Shown here piece by piece: positions 1-27,310 of a stretch of DNA of 64,000 nucleotides. The DNA lies in NCBI GenBank assembly GCA_914767715.1, contig OU612067.1, forward strand, positions 21,738,162 to 21,802,161, read 5' to 3'. The number at the start of each line of letters is the position of its first letter. Positions within the stretch are counted from its first letter, which is position 1. The translations under genes and the position numbers were made by a program. Below the pieces are notes generated by a model that saw only the letters and a program-made list of their open reading frames with translations, did no database searches and had not been told where the DNA came from. The DNA comes from Membranipora membranacea. Taxonomy: Eukaryota > Bryozoa > Gymnolaemata > Cheilostomatida > Membraniporidae.

Positions 1-259
1 AGAATTTGGTTTAATTTTGAGTATGACCATTAGGCTTGCTTTTTGAATGATTAAAACACGTTTTAAATCTGTTTTGTTTCCATGTCCCAAAATCTCTAGA
101 CCATATAATAAATGAGGATAAAAGAATGTATAATATATGTCAATAAGAGTTTTTTGGTCTAGGTAAGGCTATGGCACGCATCATGAACAAACACAAATTC
201 AGTTTTCTAACAAGTTCAGCTATGTGTTTGGAGAATGAGATATTGCTGTCTAAAGTTAT

Positions 260-1630
260 TCAAAGAAATTGTGTATCCGGTTTAATTTGAAGAGGAATGT
301 TGTTTAAATTGAGGGAAAAATCATTAAAATTAAGTTTTTTGTTTGATGCTCTAAAAATTATCTGAATAGTTTTATCATAATTTATAATCAACTTATTTGC
401 AAGACACCAGTTTTTTATGTTAGTAAGTTCAATTTTCATTTTGGATGGCTCTGTGGAGAATATGTTTGTATCATCAGCAAATAAAATGTATTTCAAGCTT
501 GGTGATGCCTTCAACAGATCATTGATAAAAATTAAAAATAGCAGAGGGCCTAAGACCGATCCTTGGGGTACACCATTTTTTAGGGTTAAAAAAGAGGATT
601 TTGCATCATTGATTTGAACAAATTGTTTTCTGTTTGATATATAACACTTCATGAAGTCTTTTGAATTTTCTGTAAAATTGCAAAGAGTAAGTTTTTGTAT
701 TAAAATATCATGGTCAATGGTGTCAAAAGCTATAGAAAAGTCTAAAAATATACCCTGAGTGATTTTGCTAGAATTAAAATTTATATATAAATCTTCCATC
801 AACTTATATATGGCACCCGTAGCATTTCTTCCTTTCCTAAAACCGAATTGGCTGTCAGTAAAAATGTGATTTGTTTAAAAAAATTCATTAATCTGTGCAG
901 CTAAAATCTTCTCCAAAATCTTGGATATGACACTGAGTATTGAAATAGGACAGTAGTTTGAGCAATTTGTTGGATGACCTTTTTTATGAAGTGGTTTAAC
1001 ACAGGCAACTTTAAGTAGGTCTGAGAAACAAGAGTTTTGAATTGATAGATTTACTAAATAGGCTAGTACTGGAGCAAGGCTATATTTGTTGTCTTTTAAA
1101 GCTTGGATGGGTATTTTGTCATACCCAGCTGATTTTTAATGGAAAGGCTTTTTAAAATATCAATTATTTCTTGAACCCCAATTAGGTGAAAATTTTGGAT
1201 GTAGGGGATTTGGATGGTCAAAATACTGTCTAAAATCTGTTTTAGAAGCAGGCAGTGCCACTGACAAGTTAGAACCAATATTTGTGAATAAGTTATTAAA
1301 TATTTCTGAAACTGCTTTTGGGTCATCAATTAATTGTTGGTGGTCATCTTTAAGAGCTATACAACTAGTCTCTGTCTTTTTGCTTTGATTAAGCAGACTT
1401 ATGATAAAACGCCATTTTTCATTTTGGTTGCCCTTACATTTTGAAAACTGTAATTTAAAATAATTGCGCTTGGCTTCTTTGATACATGATGTTACGAAAT
1501 TGCGGAAATTTATATAATGTTCTTGCACATTTTTGTTAAAAGGCTGATATTTTGCTTTATCATGTAGTTCAGTGCGCTTTTTGGTCAAATGAAATAGCTC
1601 ATCCATTCTTTTTGGAAGGCTTTTCTTCAT
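260..1630 (-). pseudogene. LINE linker and reverse transcriptase, frame-broken
   Basis: 1630-1160 encodes the basic linker before the RT domain. 1140-803 carries the RT fingers (a SAGYDKIP-like start, then PLHKKGHPTNCSNYCPIS) in shifted frame. 802-260 carries the palm, with AFDTIDHD, PQGSVLGP and FADD. A run of T's near 880 puts a stop (TAA) between fingers and palm. The RT motifs are unambiguous. The copy cannot encode an intact protein as read. Confidence 0.85.
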
Positions 1631-1709
1631 GATTTACCGCTTTTAATTTTAAAGCTTTTACTTGAACTTTCAATAGCCTGGGTCATAGTGTTTTGAAATT
1701 TATTAAAAG

Positions 1710-2160
1710 CTAGATTTGTATCAGTTCAATGTAAACAGACTCCCACTCACAATTTTCTAAATTATCTCTTAAAAGCTGGTAATCGATCTTTTGAAATGTA
1801 GCATTACTGCTAGCAATTTTATTGTTTTCAGAATGTTGCATATATGAGAAAGCCAAACACACAGGCAGATGGTCTGCAATCCGGTAATTCATGGTGAAAG
1901 ACCTAATGTTTTGTTTAAAATTTTTTATTAAGATGTGGCCGAGGATACTTGTCTTGTGTTTGCCAAAGCGAGCCGGAGTAGAAATAGTATTAAAATGACC
2001 ATTTTTTCCAATCAAATCAAGATAATTGTAGGAAAATTTATCCAAAGGGTTTTCATAGTTAATATCAATATTAATATCCCCAACAACAACAGGGCTAGAT
2101 GGGAGGGAAGGCAGCAGCTCTGCCAAATCACCAACTGTAAGTATTTAACTAATTATAGTG
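1710..2160 (-). pseudogene. LINE endonuclease C-terminal fragment
   Basis: Open frame of about 140 codons carrying the C-terminal half of an AP-type endonuclease: GDINIDI, a Thr-Ser-x-Leu-Gly-His stretch, and ADH in the usual SDH position. The N-terminal catalytic part is absent, so the copy is 5' truncated. It is separated from the downstream linker frame by about 80 bases of broken reading frame. Confidence 0.8.
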
Positions 2161-2297
2161 CATGGATTCGAGGAAGAGACAGTGAATATCAACTTTCTGT
2201 ACACTGCTGGAATGCTGCATAGCTACTGATCAGTAACAGCTCATAAAAATGTGATTGGATGACGTTGTGTCATTTCATCGAAGAAATGAGGCCAAAA

Positions 2298-3140
2298 AGG
2301 CTGTTGTTACCAAAGTAGGTGGCTGAGCTGATATGATTGCTGTATATTTCAAAACAGGTTATATTTATCTTAGAGATATAGTTTATCCTAAATCTAGGTT
2401 GGAAATAATATGTGATGGGCCTAAAGTGGTGTTTTATGTCACGTAGTTATGCGAGTGATCTTTTAAATTTGATGATTTAATGTGAAATTTTTGTGCTACG
2501 ATTTGAGACAGATCGGATAATTTTTGCTGTTTCCCACAGAAGTGCTGTTTGAATGACGCATAACAATAAATTATCAAGATCATCAAGAGTAGATAAATTT
2601 TGCCTCATTTTTACATAAAGCCAAACATGCTGTCAAAAGGGCCATTACAAAGTCTAGACATTTTTCAAAAAAGAAATTTGTCTGGCCTAAATAATGGTCC
2701 TTTTGACAGGATGTTTTGCACTATGGAAAAATGACGCCAAATATATCTACATTCGATAGTCTGTGCTGATCTTGAATATTTACACTGCCAAACTTGGAAG
2801 AGCATCAATTTAACGGTGAAGATTGTTGTCAATAAATGTTAAGAAAAAATCGTTATACTGCTGAAAATTTGTGTGTGGGTCATTCAAACAGCGCTACAGT
2901 CGATAATAGCGAAAAATTGGCTCTTACTTATTCGGTCTGTCTCAAATTGTTGCTTAAAATTTCACATTATTGATCATCAAATTTCAAAAACCGTGTGATG
3001 AAAAATGCCGCATTAGGCTCATCATATATTATTTTCAACCAAAAATTGGGATGGACTATATCACTTAGAAAAAATATGACCTGTTTTGAATCTTTTTTTT
3101 AAGCTCAGCCATCCACATTGCTAAAATCACCGTTTACAAC
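2298..3140. repeat. foldback (long inverted-repeat) element
   Basis: The left half (about 2298-2665) is an imperfect inverted copy of the right half (about 2680-3140). Matching pairs include 2352-2370 with 3075-3093 (around AAAACAGGT), 2465-2520 with 2930-2985 (around TGAGACAG), and the innermost pair around TCAAAAGGGCCATTA with TAATGGTCCTTTTGA. No open reading frame is present. It looks like a non-autonomous foldback DNA element. Its right end adjoins the point where the LRR array stops, inside an intron. Confidence 0.7.
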
Positions 3141-3159
3141 TTCATATTTTCGTAATGAA

Positions 3160-6100
3160 TAGTAAGACTAATAATGAGAAGAAAACTCACTGTCGCAACT
3201 TAAAATAAATCATGGTGGTAATGACTTATTCAAACTTATATTCCAATTTTATCAAAAATAAGCTGCATACTTATAATGGATAAAAACCCACCTTTCTGGT
3301 AATGCTGATAGATCACAGTGCCGCACAGTTAAACTCTTCAATGACCTCATCATACCTATACTATCAGGTAATGTGTGAAGTTTCTCATTAGCTGACACAT
3401 TTAACTCCTCTAGAGCATTCAGTGTGCCGATACTATAATATATAAAGATAAGTAAGACTAACAATGAGAAGAAAACTCACTGTCGCAACTTAAAATAAAT
3501 CATGATGGTCAAGATTTATTTTAAACTTATATTCCAATTTTATCATAAATAAGCTGCATACTTATAATGTATAAATTACCCACCTTTCTGGTAATGTTGA
3601 TAGATCTAAGTTCCACACATCTAAACTCTTCAATGACCTCATCATACCAATACTATCAGGTAATGTGTGTAGATTCTTAATACCTGACACATATAACTTC
3701 TCTAGAGCAGTCAGTGAGCCGATACTATAATATATAAAGATAGGTGAGACTAACAATGAGAAGAAAACTCACTGTCGCAACTTAAAATAAATCATGATGG
3801 TCAAGATTTATTTTAAACTTATATTCAAATTTTATCATAAATAAGCTGCATACTTATAATGTATAAATTACCCACCTTTCTGGTAATGCTGATAGATCAC
3901 AGCCTAACACAACTAAGACCTTCAATGACCTCATCATACCAATACTATCAGGTAATGTGTGTAGGTTCTTATTAACTGACACATATAACTTCTCTAGAGC
4001 AGTCAGTGTGCCGATACTATAATATATAAAGATAGGTGAGACTAACAATGAGAAGAAAACTCACTGTCGCAACTTAAAATAAATCATAATGGTCAAGATT
4101 TATTTTAAACTTATATTCCAATTTTATCATAAATAAGCTGCATACTTATAATGTATAAATTACCCACCTTTCTGGTAATGCTGATAGATCACAGCCTAAC
4201 ACAACTAAGACCTTCAATGACCTCATCATACCAATACTATCAGGTAATGTGTGTAGATTCTTATTATCTGACACATTTAACGTCTCTAGAGCAGTCAGTG
4301 ACCCGATACTATAATATGTATAAAGATAAATAAGACTAACAATGAGAAGAAAACTCACTGTCACATATTAAAATAAATCATGGTGGTAATGACTTATTCA
4401 AACTTATATTCAAATTTTACCATAAATAAGCTGCATACTTATAATGGCTAAATTACCCACCTTTCTGGTAATGTTGATAGTTCACAGCCTAACACATTTA
4501 AGACCTTCAATGACCTCATCATACCAATACTATCAGGTAATGTGTGTAGATTCTCATTATATGACACATCTAACGTCTCTAGAGCAGTCAGTGAGCCGAT
4601 ACTATAATATGTATAAAGATAAATAAGACTAACGATGAGAAAAAAACTCATTGTCACGTATTAAAATAAATCATGGTGATAATGACTTATTCAAACTTAT
4701 ATTCAAATTTTACCATAAATAAGCTGCATACTTATAATGGCTAAATTACCCACCTTTCTGGTAATGTTGATAGTTCACAGCCTAACACATTTAAGACCTT
4801 CAATGACCTCATCATACCAATACTATCTGGTAATGTGTGTAGATTCTTATTAGTGGACACATATAACATCTCTAGAGCAGTCAGTGAGCCGATACTATAA
4901 TATATAAAGATAGGTGAGACTAACAATGAGAAGAAAACTCACTGTCGCAACTTAAAATAAATCATGATGGTCAAGATTTATTTTAAACTTATATTCCAAT
5001 TTTATCATAAATAAGCTGCATACTTATAATGTATAAATTACCCACCTTTCTGGTAATGTTGATAGATCACAGCCTGACACAACTAAGACCTTCAATGACC
5101 TCATCATACCAATACTATCTGGTAATGTGTGTAGATTCTTATTACCTGACACATATAACGTCTCTAGAGCAGTCAGTGAGCCGATACTATAATATATAAA
5201 GATAGGTGAGACTAACAATGAGAAGAAAACTCACTGTCGCAACTTAAAATAAATCATGATGGTCAAGATTTATTTTAAACTTATATTCCAATTTTATCAT
5301 AAATAAGCTGCATACTTATAATGTATAAATTACCCACCTTTCTGGTAATGTTGATAGATCACAGCCTGACACAACTAAGACCTTCAATGACCTCATCATA
5401 CCAATACTATCTGGTAATGTGTGTAGATTCTTATTCTCTGACACATTTAGGGTCTCTAGAGCAGTCAGTGAGCCGATACTATAATAATAAAGATAAGTAA
5501 GACTAACAATGAGAAGAAAACTCACTGTCGCAACTTAAAATAAATCATGATGGTCAAGATTTATTTTAAACTTATATTCCAATTTTATCATAAATAAGCT
5601 GCATACTTATAATGTATAAATTACCCACCTTTCTGGTAATGCTGATAGATCACAGTATGACACAACTAAGACCTTCAATGACCTCATCATACCAATACTA
5701 TCAGGTAATGTGTGTAGATTCTTATTACCTAACACATCTAACGTCTCTAGAGCAGTCAGTGAGCCGATACTATAATATATATAAAGATAAGTAAGACTAA
5801 CAATGAGAAGATAACTCATTGTCACATATTAAAATAAATCATGGTGGTAATGACTTATTCAAACTTATATTCCAATTTTATCATAAATAAGCTGCATACT
5901 TATAATGGATAAATTACCCACCTTTCTGGTAATGCTGATAGATCACAGTATGACACATCTAAGACCTTCAGTGACCTCACCATACCTATACTATCAGGTA
6001 ATGTGTGTAGATTCTTATTACCGTACACATTTAACGTCTCTAGAGCTGTCAGTGAGCCGATACTATAATATATATAAAGATAAGTAAGACTAACAATGAG

Positions 6101-9100
6101 AAGATAACTCATTGTCACATATTAAAATAAATCATGGTGGTAATGACTTATTCAAACTTATATTCCAATTTTATCATTAATAAGCTGCATACTTATAATG
6201 GATAAATTACCCACCTTTCTGGTAATGCTGATAGATCACAGTATGACACAACTAAGACCTTCAATGACCTCATCATACCAATACTATCAGGTAATGTGTG
6301 TAGATTCTTATTACCGTACACATTTAACGTCTCTAGAGCAGTCAGTGAGCCGATACTATAATATATATAAAGATAAGTAAGACTAACAATGAGAAGATAA
6401 CTCATTGTCACATATTAAAATAAATCATGGTGGTAATGACTTATTCAAACTTATATTCCAATTTTATCATAAATAAGCTGCATACTTATAATGGATAAAT
6501 TACCCACCTTTCTGGTAATGCTGATAGATCACAGTATGACACAACTAAGACCTTCAATGACCTCATCATACCAATACTATCAGGTAATGTGTGTAGATTC
6601 TTATTACCTAACACATCTAACGTCTCTAGAGCAGTCAGTGAGCCGATACTATAATATATATAAAGATAAGTAAGACTAACAATGAGAAGATAACTCACTG
6701 TCACATATTAAAATAAATCATGGTGGTAATGACTTATTCAAACTTATATTCCAATTTTATCATAAATAAGCTGCATACTTATAATGGATAAATTACCCAC
6801 CTTTCTGGTAATGCTGATAGATCACAGTATGACACATCTAAGACCTTCAGTGACCTCACCATACCTATACTATCAGGTAATGTGTGTAGATTCTTATTAC
6901 CGTACACATTTAACGTCTCTAGAGCTGTCAGTGAGCCGATACTATAATATATATAAAGATAAGTAAGACTAACAATGAGAAGATAACTCATTGTCACATA
7001 TTAAAATAAATCATGGTGGTAATGACTTATTCAAACTTATATTCCAATTTTATCATAAATAAGCTGCATACTTATAATGGATAAATTACCCACCTTTCTG
7101 GTAATGCTGATAGATCACAGCGCCCCACAGTTAAACTCTTCAATGACCTCATCATACCTATACTATCAGGTAATGTGTGTAGATTCTTATTACCTGATAC
7201 ATTTAACGTCTCTAGAGCAGTCAGTGAGCCGATACTATAATATATATATAAAGATAAGTAAGACTAACAATGAGAAGAAAACTCACTGTCGCAACTTAAA
7301 ATAAATCATGGTGGTAATGACTTATTCAAACTTATATTCCAATTTTATCATAAATAAGCTGCATACTTATAATGGATAAATTACCCACCTCTCTGGTAAT
7401 GCTGATAGATTACAGTTTGACACAACTAAGACCTTCAATGACCTCATCATACCAATACTATCAGGAAATGTGTGTAGATTCTGATTATGTGACACATCTA
7501 ACGTCTCTAGAGCAGTCAGTGAGCCGATACTATAATATATATAAAGATAAGTAAGACTAACAATGAGAAGAAAACTCACTGTCGCAACTTAAAATAAATC
7601 ATGGTGGTAATGACTTATTCAAACTTATATTCCAATTTTATCATAAATAAGCTGCATACTTATAATGGATAAATTACCCACCTCTCTGGTAATGCTGATA
7701 GATTATAGTTTGACACAACTAAGACCTTCAATGACCTCATCATACCAATACTATCAGGTAATGTGTGTAGATTCTTATTACCGTACACATTTAACTCCTC
7801 TAGATCTGTCAGTGTGCCGATACTATAATATATATATAAAGATAAGTAAGACTAACAATGAGAAGATAACTCACTGTCACAACTTAACATAAATCATGGT
7901 GGTAATGACTTATTCAAACTTATATTCCAATTTTATCATAAATAAGCTGCATACTTATAATGTATAAATTACCCACCTCTCTGGTAATGCTGATAGATCA
8001 CAGTACTGCACAGTTAAACTCTTTAATGACCTCATCATACCTATACTATCAGGTAATGTGTGTAGATTCTTATTACCTAACACATCTAACGTCTCTAGAG
8101 CAGTCAGTGAGCCGATACTATAATATATATAAAGATAAGTAAGACTAACGATGAGAAGATAACTCACTGTCGCAACTTAAAATAAATCATGGTGGTAATG
8201 ACTTATTCAAACTTATATTCCAATTTTATCATAAATAAGCTGCATACTTATAATGTATAAATTACCCACCTTTCTGGTAATGCTGACAGATCACAGTATG
8301 ACACACCTAAGACCTTCAATGACCTCATCATACATATACCATCTGGTAATGTGTGTAGATTCTTATTATCTGACACATCTAACGTCTCTAGAGCAGTCAG
8401 TGAGCTGATACTATAATATATATAAAGATAAGTAAGACTAACAATGAGAAGATAACTCACTGTCGCAACTTAAAATAAATCATGGTGGTAATGACTTATT
8501 CAAACTTATATTCCAATTTTATCATAAATAAGCTGCATACTTATAATGTATAAATTACCCACCTCTCTGGTAATGCTGATAGATCACAGTACAGCACAGT
8601 TAAACTCTTTAATGACCTCATCATACCAATACTATCAGGTAATGTGTGTAGATTCTCATTATATGTCACATCTAACGTCTCTAGAGCAGTCAGTGAGCCG
8701 ATACTATAATACATAAAGATAGGTGAGACTAACAATGAGACGAAAACTCACTGTCGCAACTTAAAATAAATCATGGTGGTAATGACTTATTCAAACTTAT
8801 ATTCCAATTTTATCATAAATAAGCTGCATACTTATAATGTATAAATTACCCACCTCTCTGGTAATGTTGATAGATCACAGTACCGTACAGTTAAACTCTT
8901 TAATGACCTCATCATGCCAATACTATCAGGTAATGTGTGTAGATTCATATTACCTGACACATTTAACGTCTCTAGAGCAGTCAGTGAGCCGATACTATAA
9001 TATATATATAAAGATAAGTAAGACTAACAATGAGAAGAAAACTCACTGTGGCAACTTAAAATAAATCATGGTGGTAATGACTTATTCAAACTTATATTCA

Positions 9101-12100
9101 AATTTTATCATAAGTAAGCTGCATACTTATAATGTATAAATTACCCACCTTTCTGGTAATGTTGATACTGATAGATTACAGTATGACACATCTAAGACCT
9201 TCAATGACCTCATCATACCAATACTATCAGGTAATGTGTGTAGATTCATATTACCTGACACATTTAACGTCTCTAGAGCAGTTAGTGAGCCGATACTATA
9301 ATATATATAAAGATAAGTAAGACTAACAATGAGAAGATAACTCACTGTCGCAACTTAAAATAAATCATGGTGGTAATGACTTATTCAAACTTATATTCCA
9401 ATTTTATCATAAATAAGCTGCATACTTATAATGTATAAATTACCCACCTCTCTGGTAATGCTGATAGATCACAGTACAGCACAGTTAAACTCTTTAATGA
9501 CCTCATCATACCAATACTATCAGGTAATGTGTGTAGATTCTCATTATATGTCACATCTAACGTCTCTAGAGCAGTCAGTGAGCCGATACTATAATATATA
9601 AAGATAGGTGAGACTAACAATGAGAAGAAAACTCACTGTCGCAACTTAAAATAAATCATGATGGTCAAGATTTATTTTAAACTTATATTCCAATTTTATC
9701 ATAAATAAGCTGCATACTTATAATGTATAAATTACCCACCTTTCTGGTAATGTTGATAGATCACAGCCTGACACAACTAAGACCTTCAATGACCTCATCA
9801 TACCAATACTATCTGGTAATGTGTGTAGATTCTTATTACCTGACACATATAACGTCTCTAGAGCAGTCAGTGAGCCGATACTATAATATATAAAGATAGG
9901 TGAGACTAACAATGAGAAGAAAACTCACTGTCGCAACTTAAAATAAATCATGATGGTCAAGATTTATTTTAAACTTATATTCCAATTTTATCATAAATAA
10001 GCTGCATACTTATAATGTATAAATTACCCACCTTTCTGGTAATGTTGATAGATCACAGCCTGACACAACTAAGACCTTCAATGACCTCATCATACCAATA
10101 CTATCTGGTAATGTGTGTAGATTCTTATTCTCTGACACATTTAGGGTCTCTAGAGCAGTCAGTGAGCCGACACTATAATAATAAAGATAAGTAAGACTAA
10201 CAATGAGAAGAAAACTCACTGTCGCAACTTAAAATAAATCATGATGGTCAAGATTTATTTTAAACTTATATTCCAATTTTATCATAAATAAGCTGCATAC
10301 TTATAATGTATAAATTACCCACCTTTCTGGTAATGCTGATAGATCACAGTATGACACAACTAAGACCTTCAATGACCTCATCATACCAATACTATCAGGT
10401 AATGTGTGTAGATTCTTATTACCTAACACATCTAACGTCTCTAGAGCAGTCAGTGAGCCGATACTATAATAATAAAGATAAGTAAGACTAACAATGAGAA
10501 GAAAACTCACTGTCGCAACTTAAAATAAATCATGATGGTCAAGATTTATTTTAAACTTATATTCCAATTTTATCATAAATAAGCTGCATACTTATAATGT
10601 ATAAATTACCCACCTTTCTGGTAATGCTGATAGATCACAGTATGACACAACTAAGACCTTCAATGACCTCACCATACCTATACTATCAGGTAATGTGTGT
10701 AGATTCTTATTACCGTACACATCTAACTTCTCTAGAGCAGTCAGTGAGCCGATACTATAATATATATAAAGATAAGTAAGACTAACAATGAGAAGATAAC
10801 TCATTGTCACATATTAAAATAAATCATGGTGGTAATGACTTATTCAAACTTATATTCCAATTTTATCATAAATAAGCTGCATACTTATAATGGATAAATT
10901 ACCCACCTTTCTGGTAATGCTGATAGATCACAGTATGACACATCTAAGACCTTCAGTGACCTCACCATACCTATACTATAAGGTAATGTGTGTAGATTCT
11001 TATTACCGTAAACATTTAACGTCTCTAGAGCTGTCAGTGAGCCGATACTATAATATATATAAAGATAAGTAAGACTAACAATGAGAAGATAACTCATTGT
11101 CACATATTAAAATAAATCATGGTGGTAATGACTTATTCAAACTTATATTCCAATTTTATCATAAATAAGCTGCATACTTATAATGGATAAATTACCCACC
11201 TTTCTGGTAATGCTGATAGATCACAGTATGACACAACTAAGACCTTCAATGACCTCATCATACCAATACTATCAGGTAATGTGTGTAGATTCTTATTACC
11301 GTACACATTTAACGTCTCTAGAGCAGTTAGTGAGCCGATACTATAATATATATAAAGATAAGTAAGACTAACAATGAGAAGATAACTCATTGTCACATAT
11401 TAAAATAAATCATGGTGGTAATGACTTATTCAAACTTATATTCCAATTTTATCATAAATAAGCTGCATACTTATAATGGATAAATTACCCACCTTTCTGG
11501 TAATGCTGATAGATCACAGTATGACACAACTAAGACCTTCAATGACCTCATCATACCAATACTATCTGGTAATGTGTGTAGATTCTTATTCTCTGACACA
11601 TTTAGGGTCTCTAGAGCAGTCAGTGAGCCGACACTATAATAATAAAGATAAGTAAGACTAACAATGAGAAGAAAACTCACTGTCGCAACTTAAAATAAAT
11701 CATGATGGTCAAGATTTATTTTAAACTTATATTCCAATTTTATCATAAATAAGCTGCATACTTATAATGTATAAATTACCCACCTTTCTGGTAATGCTGA
11801 TAGATCACAGTATGACACAACTAAGACCTTCAATGACCTCATCATACCAATACTATCAGGTAATGTGTGTAGATTCTTATTACCTAACACATCTAACGTC
11901 TCTAGAGCAGTCAGTGAGCCGATACTATAATAATAAAGATAAGTAAGACTAACAATGAGAAGAAAACTCACTGTCGCAACTTAAAATAAATCATGATGGT
12001 CAAGATTTATTTTAAACTTATATTCCAATTTTATCATAAATAAGCTGCATACTTATAATGTATAAATTACCCACCTTTCTGGTAATACTGATAGATCACA

Positions 12101-15100
12101 GTATGACACAACTAAGACCTTCAATGACCTCACCATACCTATACTATCAGGTAATGTGTGTAGATTCTTATTACCGTACACATCTAACTTCTCTAGAGCA
12201 GTCAGTGAGCCGATACTATAATATATATAAAGATAAGTAAGACTAACAATGAGAAGATAACTCATTGTCACATATTAAAATAAATCATGGTGGTAATGAC
12301 TTATTCAAACTTATATTCCAATTTTATCATAAATAAGCTGCATACTTATAATGGATAAATTACCCACCTTTCTGGTAATGCTGATAGATCACAGTATGAC
12401 ACAACTAAGACCTTCAATGACCTCATCATACCAATACTATCAGGTAATGTGTGTAGATTCTTATTACCGTACACATTTAACGTCTCTAGAGCAGTTAGTG
12501 AGCCGATACTATAATATATATAAAGATAAGTAAGACTAACAATGAGAAGATAACTCATTGTCACATATTAAAATAAATCATGGTGGTAATGACTTATTCA
12601 AACTTATATTCCAATTTTATCATAAATAAGCTGCATACTTATAATGGATAAATTACCCACCTTTCTGGTAATGCTGATAGATCACAGTATGACACAACTA
12701 AGACCTTCAATGACCTCATCATACCAATACTATCAGGTAATGTGTGTAGATTCTTATTACCTAACACATCTAACGTCTCTAGAGCAGTCAGTGAGCCGAT
12801 ACTATAATATATATAAAGATGAGTAAGACTAACAATGAGAAGATAACTCACTGTCACATATTAAAATAAATCATGGTGGTAATGACTTATTCAAACTTAT
12901 ATTCCAATTTTATCATAAATAAGCTGCATACTTATAATGGATAAATTACCCACCTTTCTGGTAATGCTGATAGATCACAGTATGACACATCTAAGACCTT
13001 CAGTGACCTCACCATACCTATACTATCAGGTAATGTGTGTAGATTCTTATTACCGTACACATTTAACGTCTCTAGAGCTGTCAGTGAGCCGATACTATAA
13101 TATATATAAAGATAAGTAAGACTAACAATGAGAAGATAACTCATTGTCACATATTAAAATAAATCATGGTGGTAATGACTTATTCAAACTTATATTCCAA
13201 TTTTATCATAAATAAGCTGCATACTTATAATGGATAAATTACCCACCTTTCTGATAATGCTGATAGATCACAGCGCCCCACAGTTAAACTCTTCAATGAC
13301 CTCATCATACCTATACTATCAGGTAATGTGTGTAGATTCTTATTACCTGATACATTTAACGTCTCTAGAGCAGTCAGTGAGCCGATACTATAATATATAT
13401 ATAAAGATAAGTAAGACTAACAATGAGAAGAAAACTCACTGTCGCAACTTAAAATAAATCATGGTGGTAATGACTTATTCAAACTTATATTCCAATTTTA
13501 TCATAAATAAGCTGCATACTTATAATGGATAAATTACCCACCTCTCTGGTAATGCTGATAGATTACAGTTTGACACAACTAAGACCTTCAATGACCTCAT
13601 CATACCAATACTATCAGGTAATGTGTGTAGATTCTGATTATGTGACACATCTAACGTCTCTAGAGCAGTCAGTGAGCCGATACTATAATATATATAAAGA
13701 TAAGTAAGACTAACAATGAGAAGAAAACTCACTGTCGCAACTTAAAATAAATCATGGTGGTAATGACTTATTCAAACTTATATTCCAATTTTATCATAAA
13801 TAAGCTGCATACTTATAATGGATAAATTACCCACCTCTCTGGTAATGCTGATAGATTACAGTTTGACACAACTAAGACCTTCAATGACCTCATCATACCA
13901 ATACTATCAGGTAATGTGTGTAGATTCTTATTACCGTACACATTTAACTCCTCTAGATCTGTCAGTGTGCCGATACTATAATATATATATAAAGATAAGT
14001 AAGACTAACAATGAGAAGATAACTCACTGTCACAACTTAACATAAATCATGGTGGTAATGACTTATTCAAACTTATATTCCAATTTTATCATAAATAAGC
14101 TGCATACTTATAATGTATAAATTACCCACCTCTCTGGTAATGCTGATAGATCACAGTACTGCACAGTTAAACTCTTTAATGACCTCATCATACCTATACT
14201 ATCAGGTAATGTGTGTAGATTCTTATTACCTAACACATCTAACGTCTCTAGAGCAGTCAGTGAGCCGATACTATAATATATATAAAGATAAGTAAGACTA
14301 ACGATGAGAAGATAACTCACTGTCGCAACTTAAAATAAATCATGGTGGTAATGACTTATTCAAACTTATATTCCAATTTTATCATAAATAAGCTGCATAC
14401 TTATAATGTATAAATTACCCACCTTTCTGGTAATGCTGACAGATCACAGTATGACACACCTAAGACCTTCAATGACCTCATCATACATATACCATCTGGT
14501 AATGTGTGTAGATTCTTATTATCTGACACATCTAACGTCTCTAGAGCAGTCAGTGAGCTGATACTATAATATATATAAAGATAAGTAAGACTAACAATGA
14601 GAAGATAACTCACTGTCGCAACTTAAAATAAATCATGGTGGTAATGACTTATTCAAACTTATATTCCAATTTTATCATAAATAAGCTGCATACTTATAAT
14701 GTATAAATTACCCACCTCTCTGGTAATGCTGATAGATCACAGTACAGCACAGTTAAACTCTTTAATGACCTCATCATACCAATACTATCAGGTAATGTGT
14801 GTAGATTCTCATTATATGTCACATCTAACGTCTCTAGAGCAGTCAGTGAGCCGATACTATAATATATAAAGATAGGTGAGACTAACAATGAGACGAAAAC
14901 TCACTGTCGCAACTTAAAATAAATCATGGTGGTAATGACTTATTCAAACTTATATTCCAATTTTATCATAAATAAGCTGCATACTTATAATGTATAAATT
15001 ACCCACCTCTCTGGTAATGTTGATAGATCACAGTACCGTACAGTTAAACTCTTTAATGACCTCATCATGCCAATACTATCAGGTAATGTGTGTAGATTCA

Positions 15101-16090
15101 TATTACCTGACACATTTAATGTCTCTAGAGCAGTCAGTGAGCCGATACTATAATATATATATAAAGATAAGTAAGACTAACAATGAGAAGAAAACTCACT
15201 GTGGCAACTTAAAATAAATCATGGTGGTAATGACTTATTCAAACTTATATTCAAATTTTATCATAAGTAAGCTGCATACTTATAATGTATAAATTACCCA
15301 CCTTTCTGGTAATGTTGATACTGATAGATTACAGTATGACACATCTAAGACCTTCAATGACCTCATCATACCAATACTATCAGGTAATGTGTGTAGATTC
15401 ATATTACCTGACACATTTAACGTCTCTAGAGCAGTTAGTGAGCCGATACTATAATATATATAAAGATAAGTAAGACTAACAATGAGAAGATAACTCACTG
15501 TCGCAACTTAAAATAAATCATGGTGGTAATGACTTATTCAAACTTATATTCCAATTTTATCATAAATAAGCTGCATACTTATAATGTATAAATTACCCAC
15601 CTCTCTGGTAATGCTGATAGATCACAGTACAGCACAGTTAAACTCTTTAATGACCTCATCATACCAATACTATCAGGTAATGTGTGTAGATTCTCATTAT
15701 ATGTCACATCTAACGTCTCTAGAGCAGTCAGTGAGCCGATACTATAATATATAAAGATAGGTGAGACTAACAATGAGACGAAAACTCACTGTCGCAACTT
15801 AAAATAAATCATGGTGGTAATGACTTATTCAAACTTATATTCCAATTTTATCATAAATAAGCTGCATACATATAATGTATAAATTACCCACCTTTCTGGT
15901 AATGCTGACAGATCACAGTATGACACACCTAAGACCTTCAATGACCTCATCATACATATACTATCAGGTAATGTGTGTAGATTCTTACTATTTGACACAT
16001 TTAACTTCTCTAGAGCTGTCAGTGAGCAAAGACTGTAATATACAAAAATAAAGGTGAGGGTAACTATTAGAATATATCTCATAATCACAA
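3160..16090 (-). repeat. tandem array of 44 LRR exon-intron units (about 293 bp)
   Basis: Unit period is 291-299 bp: a 141-nt exon plus an intron of about 150 bp. The intron begins GTGGGTAATTTATACATTAT and ends in a TA-rich acceptor (TATATTATAG). Introns fall into a few near-identical types, for example those with AATCTTGACCATCATG and those with AAGTCATTACCACCATG. Intron similarity is as high as exon similarity, so whole units were duplicated rather than exons alone. At the low-coordinate end the last unit stops in its intron near 3160. At the high end unit 44 (15892-16032) is the most divergent, with an acceptor ending TATTACAG. Confidence 0.95.
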
Positions 16091-17301
16091 TTTATATTAA
16101 ATTATCCCTTCTTCATTTACGGTGTGTAGAAAAAATGCAAAGCTTAGAGGCCAGAGAGCAGTGCGCATTCTATGAAATCAATACACAAAACAAATATCGC
16201 ACCACGAGTAGTGTGCTCATGTCAGAGCACAGCAGCACTTTGTGAAAACAAAGCGAACGTTGAGTAAGTGTGGTCATGTCAGTGAGTGCAGAGTTAATTT
16301 TGGAAAATAAGCTTTATAAATATCGACAAGATATTATCTTATAATGGGAATAACCACTTGTCAGTGCTGGGCGAAATAAATATAAATATCGATATTCATT
16401 TCCCGAATGAAATATCTGCATCGAGTACATCGAACCAAGGAGTTAAAGACAAGGAGATGCAACAAAGACAGCTTCCTTGATTTTGAAGAACTACCCTAAT
16501 TTAAACAACTATAAAGCTTTACTTCAGAGTTTTCTCCCCTTGTGAGGAGGAGAGACAACTACCGACAGTGTGAAATTATGACATAAATATTACTGCCGGA
16601 TACATTGTGAGAGATTATCTCAGTATTTGGAGTTTTGTGTTGATAAAACAGCTAGAGGAAAATTGGTCAAGAGTGAGGCGGTGTAATGGCTCAGTGGCTT
16701 CAAGACACAGCTGTCAGATCTGCAACCATGGAGGCTCGCACAAAATGTCAGATTTTAGCCAAAGACTCTTATAAAACTCGAACACTGTATCACACAATAC
16801 TTATGCAAGGCATAATAAGTTTGTCATTGACGGTATCCATACATTTTCCAAATTTCAATTTCCCACCAAGCCCTCCTCTCATCTCCTGTTATCCCAGCAA
16901 GACATTTCCCATCAGGATGTTGCTTGCTATTTCAACAAGACATTTTCCCACTAACCCTTATCCCACTGTTACTTCTTTCAAAGGCCGCGCCTTCAACTCA
17001 ATGCTGGTAGCCTTTTTTAATTTTATGGTTATGTTTGATGTGAGACTTCCCCACAAACAAAATGCTTACAAAAAAACCTACCTCTGTAGCTGATGTTTGT
17101 CGGAGATCCTCTCGAGCCTGAGAGCTGTCAGATGAGGTACCAGCTGATCTAGATTAGGAGGGATATCACCGCGAATAACCATGTGTGAGATCTGACGGTC
17201 ACAGGTAGCCGCTTCAAGTTCTGATAAGGTCATGGATCTGAACTCTTCATCTTTTATGTTATCAATTCTAGGCATTGCCATACCGTACCATACTCTGTAA
17301 C
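3292..17301 (-). CDS. giant leucine-rich-repeat gene of 45 recognised exons (partial)
   Basis: The most 5' exon found is 17301-17082. It is followed by 44 LRR exons whose low coordinates are 15892, 15601, 15302, 15007, 14716, 14423, 14130, 13835, 13542, 13247, 12954, 12661, 12368, 12075, 11784, 11493, 11200, 10907, 10614, 10323, 10032, 9740, 9448, 9149, 8854, 8563, 8270, 7977, 7682, 7389, 7094, 6801, 6508, 6215, 5922, 5629, 5338, 5046, 4754, 4461, 4168, 3876, 3584 and 3292. Each exon is 141 nt (147 at 15302 and 9149). Each starts after TATAG or ACAG and ends CAGAAAG before GTGGGT. All junctions are phase 2 (AG|T gives Ser), so the protein reads LPE-SIG across exons. Each exon gives two LRRs of 23-24 residues of the short SHOC2/plant-like type (LPxSIGxLxxLxxLxV). 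Predicted LRR length is about 2,070 residues. No signal peptide, membrane span or NACHT domain is visible. The 5' start and 3' end are not in view. Confidence 0.85.
12330..15780 (-). repeat. 12-unit block duplicated from about 6177-9627 (offset 6,153 bp)
   Basis: Units with exons at 12368 to 15601 repeat those at 6215 to 9448 in the same order with constant spacing of 6,153 bp. Differences are rare: for example GGTAATGC at 7105 against GATAATGC at 13258, and a Tyr codon at the variable Cys position near 7710 against Cys at 13863. The 6-nt exon insertion at 9149 recurs at 15302. Smaller nested copies also occur: 5046-5770 resembles 9740-10464 (offset 4,694), and 10032-10755 resembles 11493-12216 (offset 1,461). 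This indicates recent unequal exchange, or assembly duplication. Confidence 0.85.
16091..17081 (-). other. intron of the LRR gene, no other gene seen
   Basis: About 1 kb between the N-terminal exon and the first LRR exon of the array. A 135-codon plus-strand frame (16686-17093) has no recognisable motif and overlaps the N-terminal exon on the opposite strand. I treat it as chance. Confidence 0.5.
17082..17301 (-). CDS. N-terminal exon of the LRR gene
   Basis: 220-nt exon with acceptor CTCTAG after a pyrimidine-rich stretch and donor AG|GTAGGT. The peptide begins [20 protein letters not shown] and ends in an LRR-like strand ([20 protein letters not shown]). It enters in phase 1 and leaves in phase 2. 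The leaving AG joins the T of the exon at 15892-16032 to give Ser, continuing the LRR pattern. It could be the N-cap before the repeats. The reading frame is open across the acceptor and the entry phase is not zero, so at least one upstream exon is likely. I do not recognise the family. Confidence 0.7.
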
Positions 17302-18094
17302 CTAGAGAAAGGGAAACAGAAAATATAAACTAAACCGAATAATATATTTATTTTGAGAGATCTTCAGCTCTCACAGCTTGGACCAGGATGAGCCAGGAGC
17401 CTCAATAGAATAAGGGGGGGGGGGAAAGCTATGAGATCTCAAGTCCTCACAGCTCATACTCAGGCAGAGATTGACAGCAGATGCTATCAAGACTAAGACA
17501 CCCAACTAAGACTCTTGAGAAATCACCACCCTCGTCTAATCGCCTTTATATTCTAAAAATCCTACATGAAAAACTCCTTTGTTTTGGTTTTTCGCTGTTA
17601 AATTATCTTGATTGAGTGATAAGCAAAATCCTATCTCCGCTTTTTGAGAGAAACGAGGGTTTAACACAATTGATGTAAAATTACATTATTTAAATTGGAC
17701 GATAAGTCGAAATCCACTTTCCGTTTTTTCAAGAGTTTTTGCAAGAGTTTTTGCAGTCTTATTTTTAAATTAAATTGATTCTTGAGCAAACGCATTTTCC
17801 GTTTTTATGCCCATGCCTACCCACAGTGATGAAACCGGGTAAACATCAAGCTTGGGCAGTTCTGGTTGGAGAGCTGTAGTATGGCAAAGATTGCTTTTTT
17901 TTGGTAAATTACTGTTTAGTGTTTAATTTAATTTACTATTCAAGAATAAAATTCATTTGAATATGGAAAACTCATCTAAACCATGTGTTATTAGTAATTT
18001 GAGTATGCACCTTTACGTAACAAAATTCGAAAAACAAATGTCCTGGATAAATTTAAGTAGCTAAACAAAACACCTTTTGTACCGAGTTGCATCC
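17302..18094. other. non-coding stretch
   Basis: Contains a homopolymer G run near 17415-17427 and AT-rich DNA. Upstream exons of the LRR gene would be expected in this direction on the minus strand, but I could not identify one. Confidence 0.4.
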
Positions 18095-18295
18095 TTGTTG
18101 AACCCACAAACGTCGCAAACATCACAACGTCGCAATCTAGCGTTCCACTAACGTCGCAATCCCAAAAACGTTTCAACGAAAGGTTTTTATAACGTCGCAA
18201 ACCCAGTAATGTCGCAATTTTTAAATGTCGCAAATGCTCAAACCCACTAACGTTGCAAATATCGCAACTCAATAAAAATGCCGAGTTTTCTTCTC
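18095..18295 (+). repeat. dispersed repeat rich in AACGTCGCAA motifs, copy 1
   Basis: About 200 bp built of variants of AACGTCGCAA and AACCCACTAACG. An inverted copy lies at 27863-28065 and shares the flank that reads CCGAGTT(T/G) next to GCAACTC, so the whole segment is a mobile repeat, not a local tandem array. No coding sense is evident. Confidence 0.65.
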
Positions 18296-18995
18296 ATTGG
18301 ATGCAAATTGGTGATTAAAATTTGCTGTTGATAGGAGCATACAGACTTCAAAAGACTGTGGGAAGTTGAAATATTGTGCAAATTGCTATAAGAGAAAAAA
18401 TTTTCACTTCCTAGGATCATGATAAAAATTATTACCTTAGAAATAATTACTGCCGCCGATTATTGGATGCTTATAAATATTGGAGGCAGATATCAGCAAA
18501 CATGCCTAGCTTGAAATATACCGTCATGTTTGATATAGGCTATGCTAAAAGTTTTCAAGATGTAGTACACTGCTTGCAATATTTATAATGGAAAAATTGT
18601 TACACCAGTTATGCATGAACCACTTCATCTTCACTTTCCACCATAACATTGGGTAGTAGACAACGGTAAAAATATGAGTTTTCCTATTTTATTTTGTGAG
18701 GGAACAACTCTCATAAGTGAAAATGGTTTCCTTATCCGAGCATCATCGATTGCTACAATGTAACAGATCAGATTTTTTTCATGGGTAGAGGCAGGACACA
18801 TGGTGACCATATCGTGATCCAGGCACTTGCAGACATGCTGAGTATGCAAATACTCATTTAAACGTCTACTAAAAACTCAGATATTTTGATTCGACCTGAT
18901 GGTCCAGGCTTATTAGACTTAGACCCAAGTGAGCCATATATCGTCCTCCCTAAATTACCAAAAATGGAGAACACTATGTAGCACTTGGACAAGAT
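18296..18995. other. non-coding stretch
   Basis: AT-rich sequence without a supported exon. Short open frames of 60-70 codons are present but carry no motif. Confidence 0.35.
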
Positions 18996-19424
18996 TTGTC
19001 CGATTTTGTTATTGTCATTACAAGGTCACCGCAGATGAGACTTCAGACAGAGAGTAAAATTCATGTGACTCCTTTAACAAGGGTGCAGTCAACAGAATCA
19101 CCCCGAAGCTCCTTTGCAGCTATGGTTACATCACCCGTACAGGCCTCAGAAGACATGACAGAAAACTTGTTTGACCTTCCAGTGGAAATTTTACCAGTGA
19201 TATTTACTATGGTTGTCAACAATAACTTAAAACATACAAAAACACAAATATATCAGATGTTCCTGGACATACAAGAATTGCTTGGGTTTGTGTTAGCGTA
19301 TGTAACAAGACCTGTCCCATCCTTATTATCATTACCAATTCATTGTTCAACTGTGTCTTTCTGGAGATATCATCACTTTCTATATGTAAAGGAAAATGGG
19401 TGGGCTAAACTATTTGATCGATAA
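18996..19424 (+). CDS. hypothetical open frame, possibly a gene remnant
   Basis: 142-codon open frame. Around residue 60 it contains ENLFDLPVEILPVIFTMV, which vaguely resembles the start of an F-box (LPxEILxxIF). It then has a moderately hydrophobic tail and no second motif. No splice sites or neighbours support it, and it sits among repeats. It could be a fossil exon or chance. Confidence 0.25.
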   Translation: MSDFVIVITRSPQMRLQTESKIHVTPLTRVQSTESPRSSFAAMVTSPVQASEDMTENLFDLPVEILPVIFTMVVNNNLKHTKTQIYQMFLDIQELLGFVLAYVTRPVPSLLSLPIHCSTVSFWRYHHFLYVKENGWAKLFDR

Positions 19425-19710
19425 TGACTCCATTCCAAGGGAAGCAATTTATATGGATGCCTGCATGGAAAGGTGTTGAATCTGCAGAAACTTCCAGTAA
19501 TCTGAACCAGCCTGAGTGCGGTATCACGTGCCAGCAGCAAGAATATTGGGCTTATGATTGAGAATAAGAGATGGTCGATGGTACAATCATAGAGTTATCC
19601 CCATAGAGCTATTACTCACAGAATAATAACATTGCGTTTCCGGTGGAGGTGTGTGCACAGTGTCGGCCATATTGGATTTGGGGAGCAACACATAAACATT
19701 CCATTGTGCT

Positions 19711-20363
19711 CATGGGCCCCTGGGACTTACATGTCTTCACTTTGCCAATGTCCACTATCACCCACACAAAAAAAACCAAACAGGGTAAGACACACAAAAA
19801 ATATTTTTTACAACCTACCCTAAAATCTCTCACACTAACTCAGCCCTCCTTCCTCTTTCATTTGCTTCAGGTTTGAAGGTTCTAGCACCAACAGAGCTGA
19901 CTTTATGGACCAGAGAAAAAAATTGTTCCACAAAATCTGAGTAGGCTGAAAAGGCTGCATGAGTGTTGACATCCCCACATGATTATCGTACTTTTTTTTA
20001 TTTCACTAAATTGGTTCTTTTTACACTTATTTATGAGTTCTAAATTATATTCATTAATTTTTGAGCTTCTAATAAGCTATGAGAAATCATATGAGTGTAA
20101 AAAGAACCAATTTAGTGGAATAAAAAAAAGTACAACACTCATGCAGCCATTTCAGCCTACTCAGATTTTGTGGAACAATTTTTTTCTCTGGTCCATAAAG
20201 TCAGCTCCGTTTACGCTAGAAACTTCAAACCTGAAGCAAATGAAAGAGGAAGGAGGGCTGAGTTAGTGTGAGAGATTTCAAGGTAGGTTGTAAAAATTTG
20301 TTTTTTGGGTGGTTGATAGTGGACATTGGCAAAGTAAAGACATGTAAGTCCCAGGGGCCCATG
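19711..20363. mobile_element. 653-bp foldback MITE with 8-bp target duplication
   Basis: The two halves are inverted copies meeting near 20,040-20,080. The outer end reads CATGGGCCCCTGGGACTTAC and is matched by the reverse complement at 20363. Inner pairs include GAGGAAGGAGGGCTGAGTTA (20250) with its complement near 19838. The direct repeat ATTGTGCT flanks it at 19703-19710 and 20364-20371. An 8-bp duplication is typical of hAT-type transposition. Short open frames inside are palindrome by-products. Relatives lie at 44237-44352 and 54649-54742. Confidence 0.85.
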
Positions 20364-20555
20364 ATTGTGCTCTATAGTTGTGGTACAAAATTCATGGATA
20401 TCTCTAGGGTTTTTTCAATAGATCTCAACATCTGATGAACCCAGACATAGATTGAAGAACCCAGGTAAAGTACAAAGATCTCTTAGCTGTATTTCATGAT
20501 TTTGAACTCATTTTGAGTAAAATATATGGATATCTCAGTGAAGCATGGTCTTTGG

Positions 20556-21725
20556 GAAGAACTTGTTAGCCACATAGCAGGGTAGAAGGGGCGTGGCCTG
20601 ATACTCTTGTTTCATTGGTTTACTTATTTGTATACAGATATTGCGAAAGCACATGGTTATATTAGATGTATTTTATAGATGTTAGTGCCTTAATAATACT
20701 ACAAATACTCTCTATATGCTTATATGATGTAAGCCTTTGACAATTCACTAAAATAGCCAGCTAAGATCACCACACCCCCTGAACTCCCACATTAAAATAA
20801 AATACAAACAGAAAATATGCTTGAAGAGCAAAGATAGATAAATACCAGCCATCCAATGTAGAACCACCAAGAGAGAAAACACCTTTTTGAATGCTATTAC
20901 GATTTTTCAACTAATGCAGCTCAGACTCCTTTTATTTTGTTTTACTTATGTGCCGTACTTTCGATGCTATCAACCAATTACAGGATGGATATTAGAAATA
21001 AGGCAATAAACAAACTTCAAACTTCACTTAAACATTTACTAATTCCAACATTCAAGCTAGTGTTAGACTTTATATCACAAATAACAACTCGACGAAGCAA
21101 ATGAAAACTTCACTTAGTGAGCTGAATTTTGGTTAGTACCTTATTAATCATCCTAGTAGCCTCTTTAAAAACTGCACAAACATGGTCTCGGAGGATGCTG
21201 AATATTCCTTGCATTTTGCAGCCTCTATATGTTTTTATTCAAGTTGCGGCAAGTGCTACCTTACTTGCATTTAATAATAGATTACAACGTTCCATGCTGC
21301 TGTCACAAATATTGAGGTTATCAATGAGACACCACTGCTGGTGAATGATGGGAGCAAATAGCTGCAGATATATTCAACTTAGAGTTCGCATTTACCATAT
21401 TTGAATATAAGTATTGTAGAACAAGTTTGTTCCCTCTGTGGTCGCAGAGGGATATCCCTCCACCACAGAGGGAACAAACTGATGTATATATTTTAGATCC
21501 TTGTGACTTTAGCAAACACCGACTGCGCTTTGATTTAGGTCTCTAAGAGGTATTGTCAGTTATTCTAAGCTTTGCAACAATACCTACATTGAAACCATCA
21601 AATTTGTGATGAAAGAACATCGAAACATCCGAAATTACATTACATTAATTTGTGTCAATATATATATATATAGAAAATAGGGAGGCACGCCCTTTCTACC
21701 CTGCTATGTGGCTAACAAGTTCTTC
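20556..21725. mobile_element. 1.17-kb element with 40-bp terminal inverted repeats
   Basis: The left end (20556-20595) begins GAAGAACTTGTTAGCCACAT. The right end (21686-21725) is its reverse complement with one mismatch. The interior is AT-rich with a (TA)n run at 21658-21671 and no transposase-like frame, so it is non-autonomous if mobile. I found no clear target duplication. It contains the small hairpin at 21425-21479. Confidence 0.6.
21425..21479. repeat. 55-bp hairpin (GTTTGTTCCCTCTGTGGT arms)
   Basis: 18-bp perfect arms (21425-21442 and 21462-21479). The loop is itself partly palindromic (GAGGGATATCCCTC). It resembles the other mini hairpin elements in this window. No target duplication was recognised. 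Confidence 0.6.
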
Positions 21726-22719
21726 CGTCTTGGGAGGAAAAAGAAGTGTAACTGGAAGACAAGGTATGTCAAGTGCATAAATCTTACATATTCTGAGAAG
21801 CTGAGTTGTTTCCTATCACATGACATACACTAAAACATTTTCATTCTGCATCTAATTGGACTGGTGATTAGCAATCATTATTTGTTTGGATAGCAAGCAT
21901 GACTTTTTAGTTCTTCAATTTCATTCTTCATTTAATTTTGTTGTTGTCCAGCATTCCTATCCCCCCCTGATCCCATCATCTATTTGCCTTTCTATCTTCC
22001 TACAGCTAGCCCTGCATAATTGCGGGATTGAATGTAGAAAGACAAATAGAATGGTAAGATTACATCATTGTCAGCCAGCTAGCCAAATATATAATATAAT
22101 ATTAATTGGCACAATTGTAATTGTGTGTATTCATTCATTTCTTTCAGCAGCTAAGAACTGTAAGACAGTTTTGGATTACCCACATTCACTAAACAACAAG
22201 CAGGTGAGATGCCCGGAGGGAGCTTTTGCTGTGCAGTTAACTGCTCTAACTCTTCAAGTAATTCATCTAAAAAATTCCATGGGTGAGTTATTTTATATTA
22301 TAATTTACAATGATGTAGCTTGGATCCATAACAGCAATAGTTGGTGTAAAATTGAGTTTTGTAGGCACATGGAGGGTTGATTCCCCTACAGTGGTTTAGT
22401 GCCTCTCAAAAAACCACCACCAATCAACAAAAGAAGTTGTGTTTTTTGTTGGTTGCTTCCGGTTGGGGACTTTTTGGTGGGCACTCGACCACTGTTGGGG
22501 GATCAAACCTTCAATGGTGCCCATGACTGTTATTTTGTACTCTTTGCATTTGTCAGAGCAGAGCTTTTGAATTCAATACCACCAAAAATGTTACAATATC
22601 GTTCACGCCTATCATTAGACTCACGGATGTATTACCACTAGCGTGTTTGTGTAGTTATTGAATCAAACTTGAATACGTAATCAAAAAATAATCATTGTTA
22701 CAATGCATTGTTATTATAG
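21726..22719. other. upstream region of the THAP/P-element-like gene
   Basis: Non-coding as far as I can support. A 48-nt segment at 22006-22053 has exon-like borders (CTACAG before, GTAAGA after) and encodes a Cys-x3-Cys. Its phase does not fit the THAP exon that follows, so I do not join them. Confidence 0.35.
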
Positions 22720-22912
22720 ATTTCCACTGAAAGACCCTGAACTGACCAAAAGATGGGTGGTTGCGACAAAGAGAGAGGGCTTTAATCCTGGGAAGTCGAC
22801 AAAGCTGAGCTCCGACCATTTTAAAGACAATGATTACGCCGGAGTGCCAAAACAGTCATATCTAAAACCTGATGCCATTCCTTCTGTGTTCACTTTTCCA
22901 GCACATCTTATG
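22720..22912 (+). CDS. THAP-domain exon
   Basis: The exon starts after TTATTATAG and ends before GTATGA. It encodes RFPLKDPELTKRW, then LSSDHF and KPDAIPSVF, the Trp, His and AVPxxF-type landmarks of a THAP DNA-binding domain. Ser replaces the Cys expected three residues before the zinc-binding His. The upstream Cys-x2-4-Cys exon is missing from view. Confidence 0.75.
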
Positions 22913-26922: not shown

Positions 26923-27310
26923 TCTTGCATCATTCACTCTGCGATTTAATCTGATATGATACAATCCAATTTATTTTATGTTTATGATCTATTTCATTAT
27001 TGTCTATGAATTAAAAAAATTATATCCATGTATCAGTCTGTGCTTGATAGCAGGGGCATATATTCTAAAAAATTTCACTCACTGACTTTTCATAGATGAG
27101 CATAATAATCGGGCGCAGCCCGATCCACACGCCGTAGGCGTGGCGGGGAGGGTGTGGGAAATTTTTGCATATCGGTAGCAAAATAGTGCAAGCAGAGAGG
27201 TATTTCAATAGCTCACTGAGCCTTTGGGTACTTTCAGAAAACAACTCAATAGCAGTAGAAGATTACGGTAAAAATGCTCCAGTTGTAAAGCACCCATTTG
27301 AAAAAAAACT
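26923..27310. other. 3' flank of transposase gene
   Basis: AT-rich, with short GC-rich palindromes at about 27110-27150 (GGGCGCAGCCC, ACGCCGTAGGCGT). These could form hairpins but have no assigned role. Confidence 0.35.

Follow-up and report, generated by a model that had tools for sequence, protein, structure and literature searches.

A tandem array of 44 leucine-rich-repeat exons in the bryozoan Membranipora membranacea, probably the binding part of a large ROCO GTPase

A stretch of 64,000 nt from the genome of the bryozoan Membranipora membranacea (contig OU612067.1, here termed the window) carries on its minus strand a tandem array of 44 symmetric exons that encode leucine-rich repeats (LRRs). 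Judged from the sequence, this array probably forms the binding region of a single large, cytoplasmic protein of LRR-ROC-COR architecture, a ROCO GTPase, whose repeat units are recombined in the germline and whose concave face is under selection. It is the longest of 15 such arrays that follow one another on the same strand, and the family to which it belongs looks like an intracellular recognition system.

Structure of the exon array

The array exons run from position 16032 down to 3292. Their lengths vary by 6 nt only, with 42 exons of 141 nt and two of 147 nt, and the 43 introns between them measure 150, 151, 152 or 154 nt. Tandem Repeats Finder describes the array as 44.0 copies of a 293-nt period with 93% matches. 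Each exon is preceded by AG and followed by GTGGGT, is free of stop codons, and starts and ends in phase 2, with one split-codon base at its start and two at its end (44/44 in every respect). This phase symmetry makes every change in repeat number or order safe for the reading frame. In our reading of the translation, each exon comprises a 24-residue and a 23-residue LRR, which amounts to 88 LRRs over the array. Pfam LRR models match the first units, and LRR structures in the PDB match as well. The first-pass annotation, made from the sequence alone, had placed 44 open units with GT-AG borders, phase 2 at both ends and about 88 LRRs at 3292..16032, and each of these statements held when the units were examined one by one.

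The openness of the array exceeds chance, since none of the exons bears a stop codon, compared to a mean of 16.8 stop-bearing exons (lowest 7 in 2,000 trials) expected had the 378 deviations from the consensus been placed randomly; chance open frames are thus ruled out. A plus-strand reading is also ruled out, as the exon and splice signals lie on the minus strand. If retained, every one of the 43 introns stops the frame, after 7 codons in 40 introns, after 4 in two and after 22 in the remaining one.

The array as the middle of a predicted ROCO gene

The 44 exons are, by prediction from the sequence, the middle of one larger gene that consists of an exon 1, the array and a last exon with the ROCO part (Table 1). 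The last exon resides in a 678-aa open frame on the minus strand just left of the window; its exonic part begins after TTCTTTTGCAG, in phase 2, and the acceptor is pyrimidine-rich and in phase. Splicing of exon 1, the 44 units and the last exon in silico yields 2,795 open residues with a mass of 304 kDa, in which the LRRs and the Roc domain share one reading frame. The first-pass annotation was right about the array itself but had missed its strand, the in-frame upstream exon, the final exon beyond the window border and the clustering of related genes described below.

The last exon contains the end of the LRRs, a Roc GTPase domain and a COR-like region. The Roc domain is matched by PF08477 with 28.5 bits (cut-off 27), and the best PDB matches of this exon are 3dpu, 6hlu and 8r4b, with a value of 7.9e-11 for the Roco chain; the entries 6hlu and 8r4b carry the name C. 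tepidum Roco. The predicted protein possesses the motifs GKSRAGKT at residue 2220, DFGGQ at 2274 and THCD at 2343, which are GTPase motifs, the first of them the P-loop. A COR domain likely follows the Roc domain. For P0233, a Roc-containing protein of the bryozoan Watersipora subatra, the structure model has the LRR-Roc-COR structure 6hlu as its top match, but with a root-mean-square deviation of 19.3 and low confidence in that region. A crude hydropathy scan found no hydrophobic leader near the start of the predicted protein, the highest 19-residue value within the first 70 aa being 0.22.

A clustered gene family

A 409-base query from the array returned 236 matches in the genome, and most of those listed fall into 14 further arrays at 21.80-22.51 Mb on contig C3, oriented like the window array. 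In total, 15 arrays of 2 to 44 units stand in tandem on one strand over 0.77 Mb. The 14 others hold 145 exons, 2 to 24 per array, of which 140 pass the checks on AG, GT, phase and open frame. The splice check accepts only AG before donor GT; the five failing exons were excluded from the selection tests, as were the exons of L026 and L027. A homologue of exon 1 lies beside 8 of the 14 arrays and is open over its full aligned length in seven; in the eighth, at L023, the exon is shorter and is overrun by the reading of fixed length.

Homologues of the last exon were scored at 65 loci out of 742 candidates. Roc matches numbered 148, of which 67 have an open frame no shorter than 371 aa. The union of the last-exon loci with these 67 Roc matches comprises at least 110 ROCO-like loci on nine contigs, a lower bound that may include broken genes. 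More groups of ROCO last exons are located at C9:0.42-2.5 Mb, at C5:4.3-7.6 Mb, and at C3:18.9-19.4, 22.8-23.6 and 25.6-26.1 Mb. The arrays inspected in these groups (L033 and L034) have different unit lengths. The sister array L033 (C3:19388000-19394999) consists of 11 units at a period of ~378, with phase-2 exons and the donors GTGAGT or GTTAGT; nine units were parsed by script as 141 nt, and the other two end, by eye, at a GTTAGT donor. An array on C9 is of another LRR type, with a period of 384/397 and, by eye, phase 2. No array is present within the 7-8 kb examined around L032 and L035, relatives located on C5 and at C3:22.8 Mb.

Contigs C11 and C1 carry sister ROCO genes in which a single exon holds the LRR array, within open frames of 2,462 and 1,634 aa, respectively. 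The 2,462-aa frame (L029, C11:3043001-3051000) contains 67 pattern-matched repeats, which vary at the concave face and beside it. The LRRs of both genes are of a different, single-LRR type, so that they represent sister branches; retrocopies of the window array are ruled out by the same difference.

Two protein searches, each with the top ~8,000 candidates scored, revealed no close orthologue, the LRR proteins among the 120 matches listed for each being at most 49% identical. The best match to the 47-residue unit among 360 proteins (25/47) is W. subatra P0233, annotated as 'leucine-rich repeat protein lrrA-like', an 849-aa protein with the same 47-aa double LRR and a Roc domain, which shares 27% identity over 452 aa with the last exon. 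The exact DNA pattern had 0 matches in viral contigs, and the tRNA and Rfam scans likewise gave 0 matches.

Diversifying selection on the concave face

Within the window array, the exons are less alike than the introns, with mean pairwise identities of 0.919 vs 0.954, and exon identity is also below intron identity in all nine of the other arrays measured. Among 63 pairs of units with an identical intron, the exons differ by 0 to 19 bases, 15 pairs showing no difference. In LRR proteins the concave face is formed by the xxLxLxx positions. Of the nine codons that vary most in the array, eight are such face sites (permutation 0/50,000) and the ninth is codon 43; face codons 8 and 32 are invariant. 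In the structure model of W. subatra P0233, codons 9-11 and 33-35 appear to match strand residues. Over the 44 exons, the first and second bases of codons 35 and 38 vary and the third is invariant, and codon 11 varies at its first base only.

For codon alignment, the two 147-nt exons were trimmed by two codons. In the window array, the nonsynonymous divergence (dN) of face codons is 0.372, compared to an all-codon synonymous divergence (dS) of 0.151, with a bootstrap range of 0.039 to 0.447 for the difference; dN/dS is 0.33 at the remaining codons and 0.09 at core residues. The 140 exons of the 14 other arrays gave a face dN of 0.452 vs an overall dS of 0.162, and their variation by site correlates with that of the window at 0.96. 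In a tree built from the 147 distinct exons, counted by parsimony with transitions weighted 2, the face codons underwent 284.5 nonsynonymous and 28.5 synonymous changes (ratio 3.5, P 2e-14), and the non-face codons 161.5 and 135.5 (ratio 0.47). The one-exon arrays, of which only in-register repeats were used (59/67, 37/40 and 42/43), vary at or beside similar positions. Altogether, diversifying selection at concave-face sites, like that described for the LRR-ROCO arrays of brown algae, appears well supported at the level of sequence.

Repeat turnover

Units 2-13 and units 23-34, which lie at a lag of 21 units, differ by only five exon and three intron bases over 12 unit pairs, and share exact repeats of up to 1,005 nt. 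Across the cluster, 11 of the 147 distinct exon sequences occur in more than one array, and 89.1 of 182 exons have their nearest relative within their own array, compared to 19.6 expected, the two 147-nt exons being excluded from this count. These figures indicate that most exchange takes place nearby, with some of it between genes. The first-pass annotation had suggested unequal crossing-over and gene conversion as routes of diversification; the block copies, the range of array sizes, the exons common to several arrays and the 63 identical-intron pairs support one or both of them. Turnover of repeats in the germline, combined with diversifying selection, is a well supported description of the family.

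Alternative explanations

Several observations weigh against the proposed reading of a germline-recombined, face-selected ROCO GTPase. The COR-A match in the last exon reaches only 13.5 bits, under the cut-off of 35.3, and PF08477 also matches in 8 of 14 control genomes, above the cut-off in five, so that this model marks GTPases more widely than ROCO proteins. In the cluster, L012, L014, L015, L017 and L024 each have one exon that did not pass the splice check, and the last exon of L017 is split in two frames. When the face codons' own dS is used (0.284, estimated from few sites), face dN/dS in the window array is 1.31, and the corresponding values in the other arrays are 0.452/0.335. Recombination among units biases the tree counts of exons, and a minimum-step count is weaker, with 31 nonsynonymous to 6 synonymous changes on the face and 26 to 17 in the rest (Fisher P 0.027), in the same direction. 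The most variable site of the one-exon arrays is 12 or 13, which adjoins the face set and is not inside it; one of the three, L030, has a ratio of 1.26 at its remaining sites and thus carries no purifying signal elsewhere. None of the five exon differences in the recent block copy changes an amino acid at a face site. Among seven last exons, dN/dS is 0.43-0.80 in close copies and 0.27-0.33 in distant ones, the former values suggesting that recent constraint is mild. Moreover, it is from the variation pattern alone that we infer a possible role in immunity or self/non-self recognition.

The most viable alternative, although an unlikely one, is that the symmetric exons are cassettes chosen combinatorially by alternative splicing, which would produce many receptors from one locus. 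Since all 44 exons are symmetric, any subset of them keeps the frame, and splice variants are reported for the LRR-ROCO genes of brown algae, whose LRR exons are phase-2 (PMC11378527). For M. membranacea, the assembly report lists a public RNA-seq data set, ERR6464929 (PMC10290214). However, the GTGGGT common to the 44 donors and the near-identical introns offer no obvious unit-specific signals, no docking complementarity was found in the one intron tested, and the one-exon sisters attain very long LRR-ROCO frames (2,462 and 1,634 aa) with no splicing choice at all. As these sister arrays vary at or beside similar positions, alternative splicing would not be needed as a source of diversity.

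Less probable than splicing cassettes is an ordinary expanded repeat gene that evolves mainly by drift, with unequal crossing-over and with face sites that are simply the least constrained. The array-length range of 2-44, the unaltered face residues in the recent block copy and the window ratio of 1.31 are all compatible with drift, and the x positions on the concave side are generally the least conserved part of an LRR. By contrast, face dN exceeds all-codon dS both in the window and elsewhere, with a bootstrap range above zero, and the tree-count face ratio of 3.5 is too high for relaxed constraint alone, which should stay at or below 1.

A pseudogene or relic array, severed by transposable elements in its last intron, ranks slightly below drift and is improbable. 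That intron holds a foldback element, with outermost arms at 2279-2329 and 3102-3152, and a degenerate non-LTR (long terminal repeat) retroelement at 1-2160 on the minus strand, and some members of the cluster are damaged; nevertheless, open frames are retained in all 44 array exons and in the last exon, and the intron is ~4.2 kb long and ends in a pyrimidine-rich, in-phase acceptor. The weakest alternative, an assembly artefact in which copies were expanded or joined from two haplotypes, is very improbable: it could draw on the near-identity of units 2-13 and 23-34 and on the 62 join corrections and 17 removed haplotypic duplications that the assembly report records, but the 66-fold HiFi coverage and contig N50 of 7.0 Mb given there make a gross error in the array unlikely (PMC10290214), 14 more arrays of the same design lie on the same chromosome, and most of the array is not duplicated.

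Proposed mechanism

For a germline-recombined, face-selected ROCO GTPase, the simplest reading is that all units would be spliced in series. Units would be gained, lost and copied in the germline through unequal crossing-over and gene conversion, with the near-identical introns serving as recombination sites and the phase-2 symmetry preserving the frame of every product. The exons would be kept diverse by selection for new binding surfaces, and the introns would be homogenised. The resulting solenoid might bind varied ligands, either microbial or self/non-self, and signal through the GTPase; from the nature of the ROCO family and the selection pattern, we infer that such recognition would take place inside the cell.

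On a more tentative note, to which we give somewhat less than even weight, a colonial animal may have acquired, independently of brown algae, more than 100 LRR-ROCO recognition receptors with frame-safe exon arrays that are recombined in the germline, and perhaps also spliced or somatically recombined, so that colonies would differ in specificity, for use in immunity or in colony self/non-self recognition. The family is a candidate molecular basis of immunity or colony recognition in Bryozoa, in which the contrast between exon arrays and their one-exon sisters would separate the role of splicing from that of recombination.

Other features of the window

Elsewhere, the window contains an apparently intact gene for NSRP1, whose product is 57% identical (84% covered) to that of W. 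subatra and 96% identical (55% covered) to a JGI protein, in addition to fragments of mobile elements (Table 1). The foldback element of the last intron (2279-3152) has imperfect nested inverted arms with 71-80% identity. By eye, reverse-transcriptase frames of a kind similar to that in the last intron occur near the arrays L018, L019 and L021.

Table 1. Coordinates of the predicted ROCO gene and of other features; positions refer to the window unless a contig is given.
Feature	Position	Strand	Basis or remark
Predicted exon 1, 220 nt	17082..17301	minus	candidate ATG at 17281; ends in phase 2, joins unit 1 in frame
Predicted intron 1	16033..17081	minus	last ~60 bases resemble array intron (by eye)
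Array of 44 phase-2/phase-2 exons with 43 introns	3292..16032	minus	Tandem Repeats Finder and splice/frame reading
Units 2-13 of the array (recent block copy, partner units 23-34)	12368..15741	minus	
Array units 23-34, block-copy partner	6215..9588	minus	
Predicted last intron, part in window	1..3291	minus	whole intron 4,171 nt, from exon coordinates
Predicted last exon	C3:21737281 to frame end 21735313 (L009:9120-7152)	minus	starts 880 bases left of window
NSRP1 (nuclear speckle splicing regulatory protein 1), apparently intact, several exons	36776-42900	minus	
P-element/THAP9-like transposase remnants, several open frames	23659-26922	plus	Tnp_P_element 6.2e-20; TNP-like RNase H C-terminal domain 1.5e-11
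Open frame similar to a portion of an LTR retroelement polyprotein	63218-64000	minus	by eye

Comparison with known systems

Dscam exon clusters and the variable lymphocyte receptors (VLRs) of lampreys both consist of repeated coding modules that could diversify binding, and the first-pass annotation had loosely likened the array to them. The likeness to Dscam fails in one respect: docking complementarity of the upstream intron to the most frequent array intron is no better than in shuffles (longest exact complement 9 nt, compared to a mean of 8.8 and a maximum of 12), which rules out a Dscam-like docking-selector arrangement. The likeness to VLRs stands in a loose sense only. The bryozoan germline gene is already complete in silico, with no partial gene awaiting assembly, and the crude scan gave its predicted protein no leader. 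As for NOD-like receptors (NLRs), no NACHT or NB-ARC domain was matched in the last exon or, across positions 16,000-29,999, in any of the three frames of the minus strand, and NACHT, TIR or death domains just upstream were likewise rejected in the three minus-strand frames.

The predicted architecture of LRR-ROC-COR is shared with MFHAS1/MASL1 and with the bacterial Roco proteins found among the PDB matches. MFHAS1/MASL1 and bacterial Roco proteins have few LRRs and are not known as hypervariable. W. subatra P0233, from the same phylum, has the same 47-aa double LRR with a cysteine in the second repeat and a Roc domain, and differs in its length of 849 aa with about six double units. Judged by titles and abstract openings, none of the papers listed in the literature searches appears to report such a gene family in bryozoans, and neither 'leucine-rich' nor 'immune' is used in the text examined of a paper on Flustra (PMC13326412). 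The LRR genes of Tetrahymena resemble the bryozoan arrays in their uniform phase-2 LRR exons, species-specific expansion, ectopic recombination and a nearby element like a long interspersed nuclear element; they differ in having 90-bp exons and in belonging to a ciliate, and ROCO is absent from the portion of text examined (PMC6564038).

The LRR-ROCO genes of brown algae are the closest precedent, and the bryozoan gene, as predicted, shares their design. These algal genes were reportedly treated earlier by Zambounis et al. 2012, as cited in Teng et al. 2024. In the latter paper, they are described with phase-2 LRR exons, selection at concave sites and splice variants, and with 9-47 mostly dispersed genes per species and up to 49 LRRs (Teng et al. 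2024, PMC11378527). Both systems have tandem phase-2 LRR exons, concave-face selection and variable array length, and probably also the LRR-ROC-COR order. They differ in that a 72-bp exon encodes one LRR in the algae, whereas an exon of 141 or 147 nt encodes two in M. membranacea, and in that the algal genes are mostly dispersed, whereas the bryozoan has same-strand clusters, at least 110 loci and 88 array LRRs. The bryozoan, an animal and not an alga, also possesses sister branches with one-exon arrays. An independent origin of the design in the two lineages is likely. Human ROCO GTPases, by comparison, are listed there as four genes, LRRK1, LRRK2, DAPK1 and MFHAS1 (PMC11378527). With 110 or more ROCO-like loci and with LRR surfaces that are modular and hypervariable, the bryozoan would be an animal counterpart of the brown-algal system, and such a counterpart would offer a natural way of testing whether LRR-ROCO proteins act as recognition receptors. 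The colony that was sequenced had as its substrate the kelp Undaria, itself a brown alga, from the lineage that has the LRR-ROCO exon-array design.

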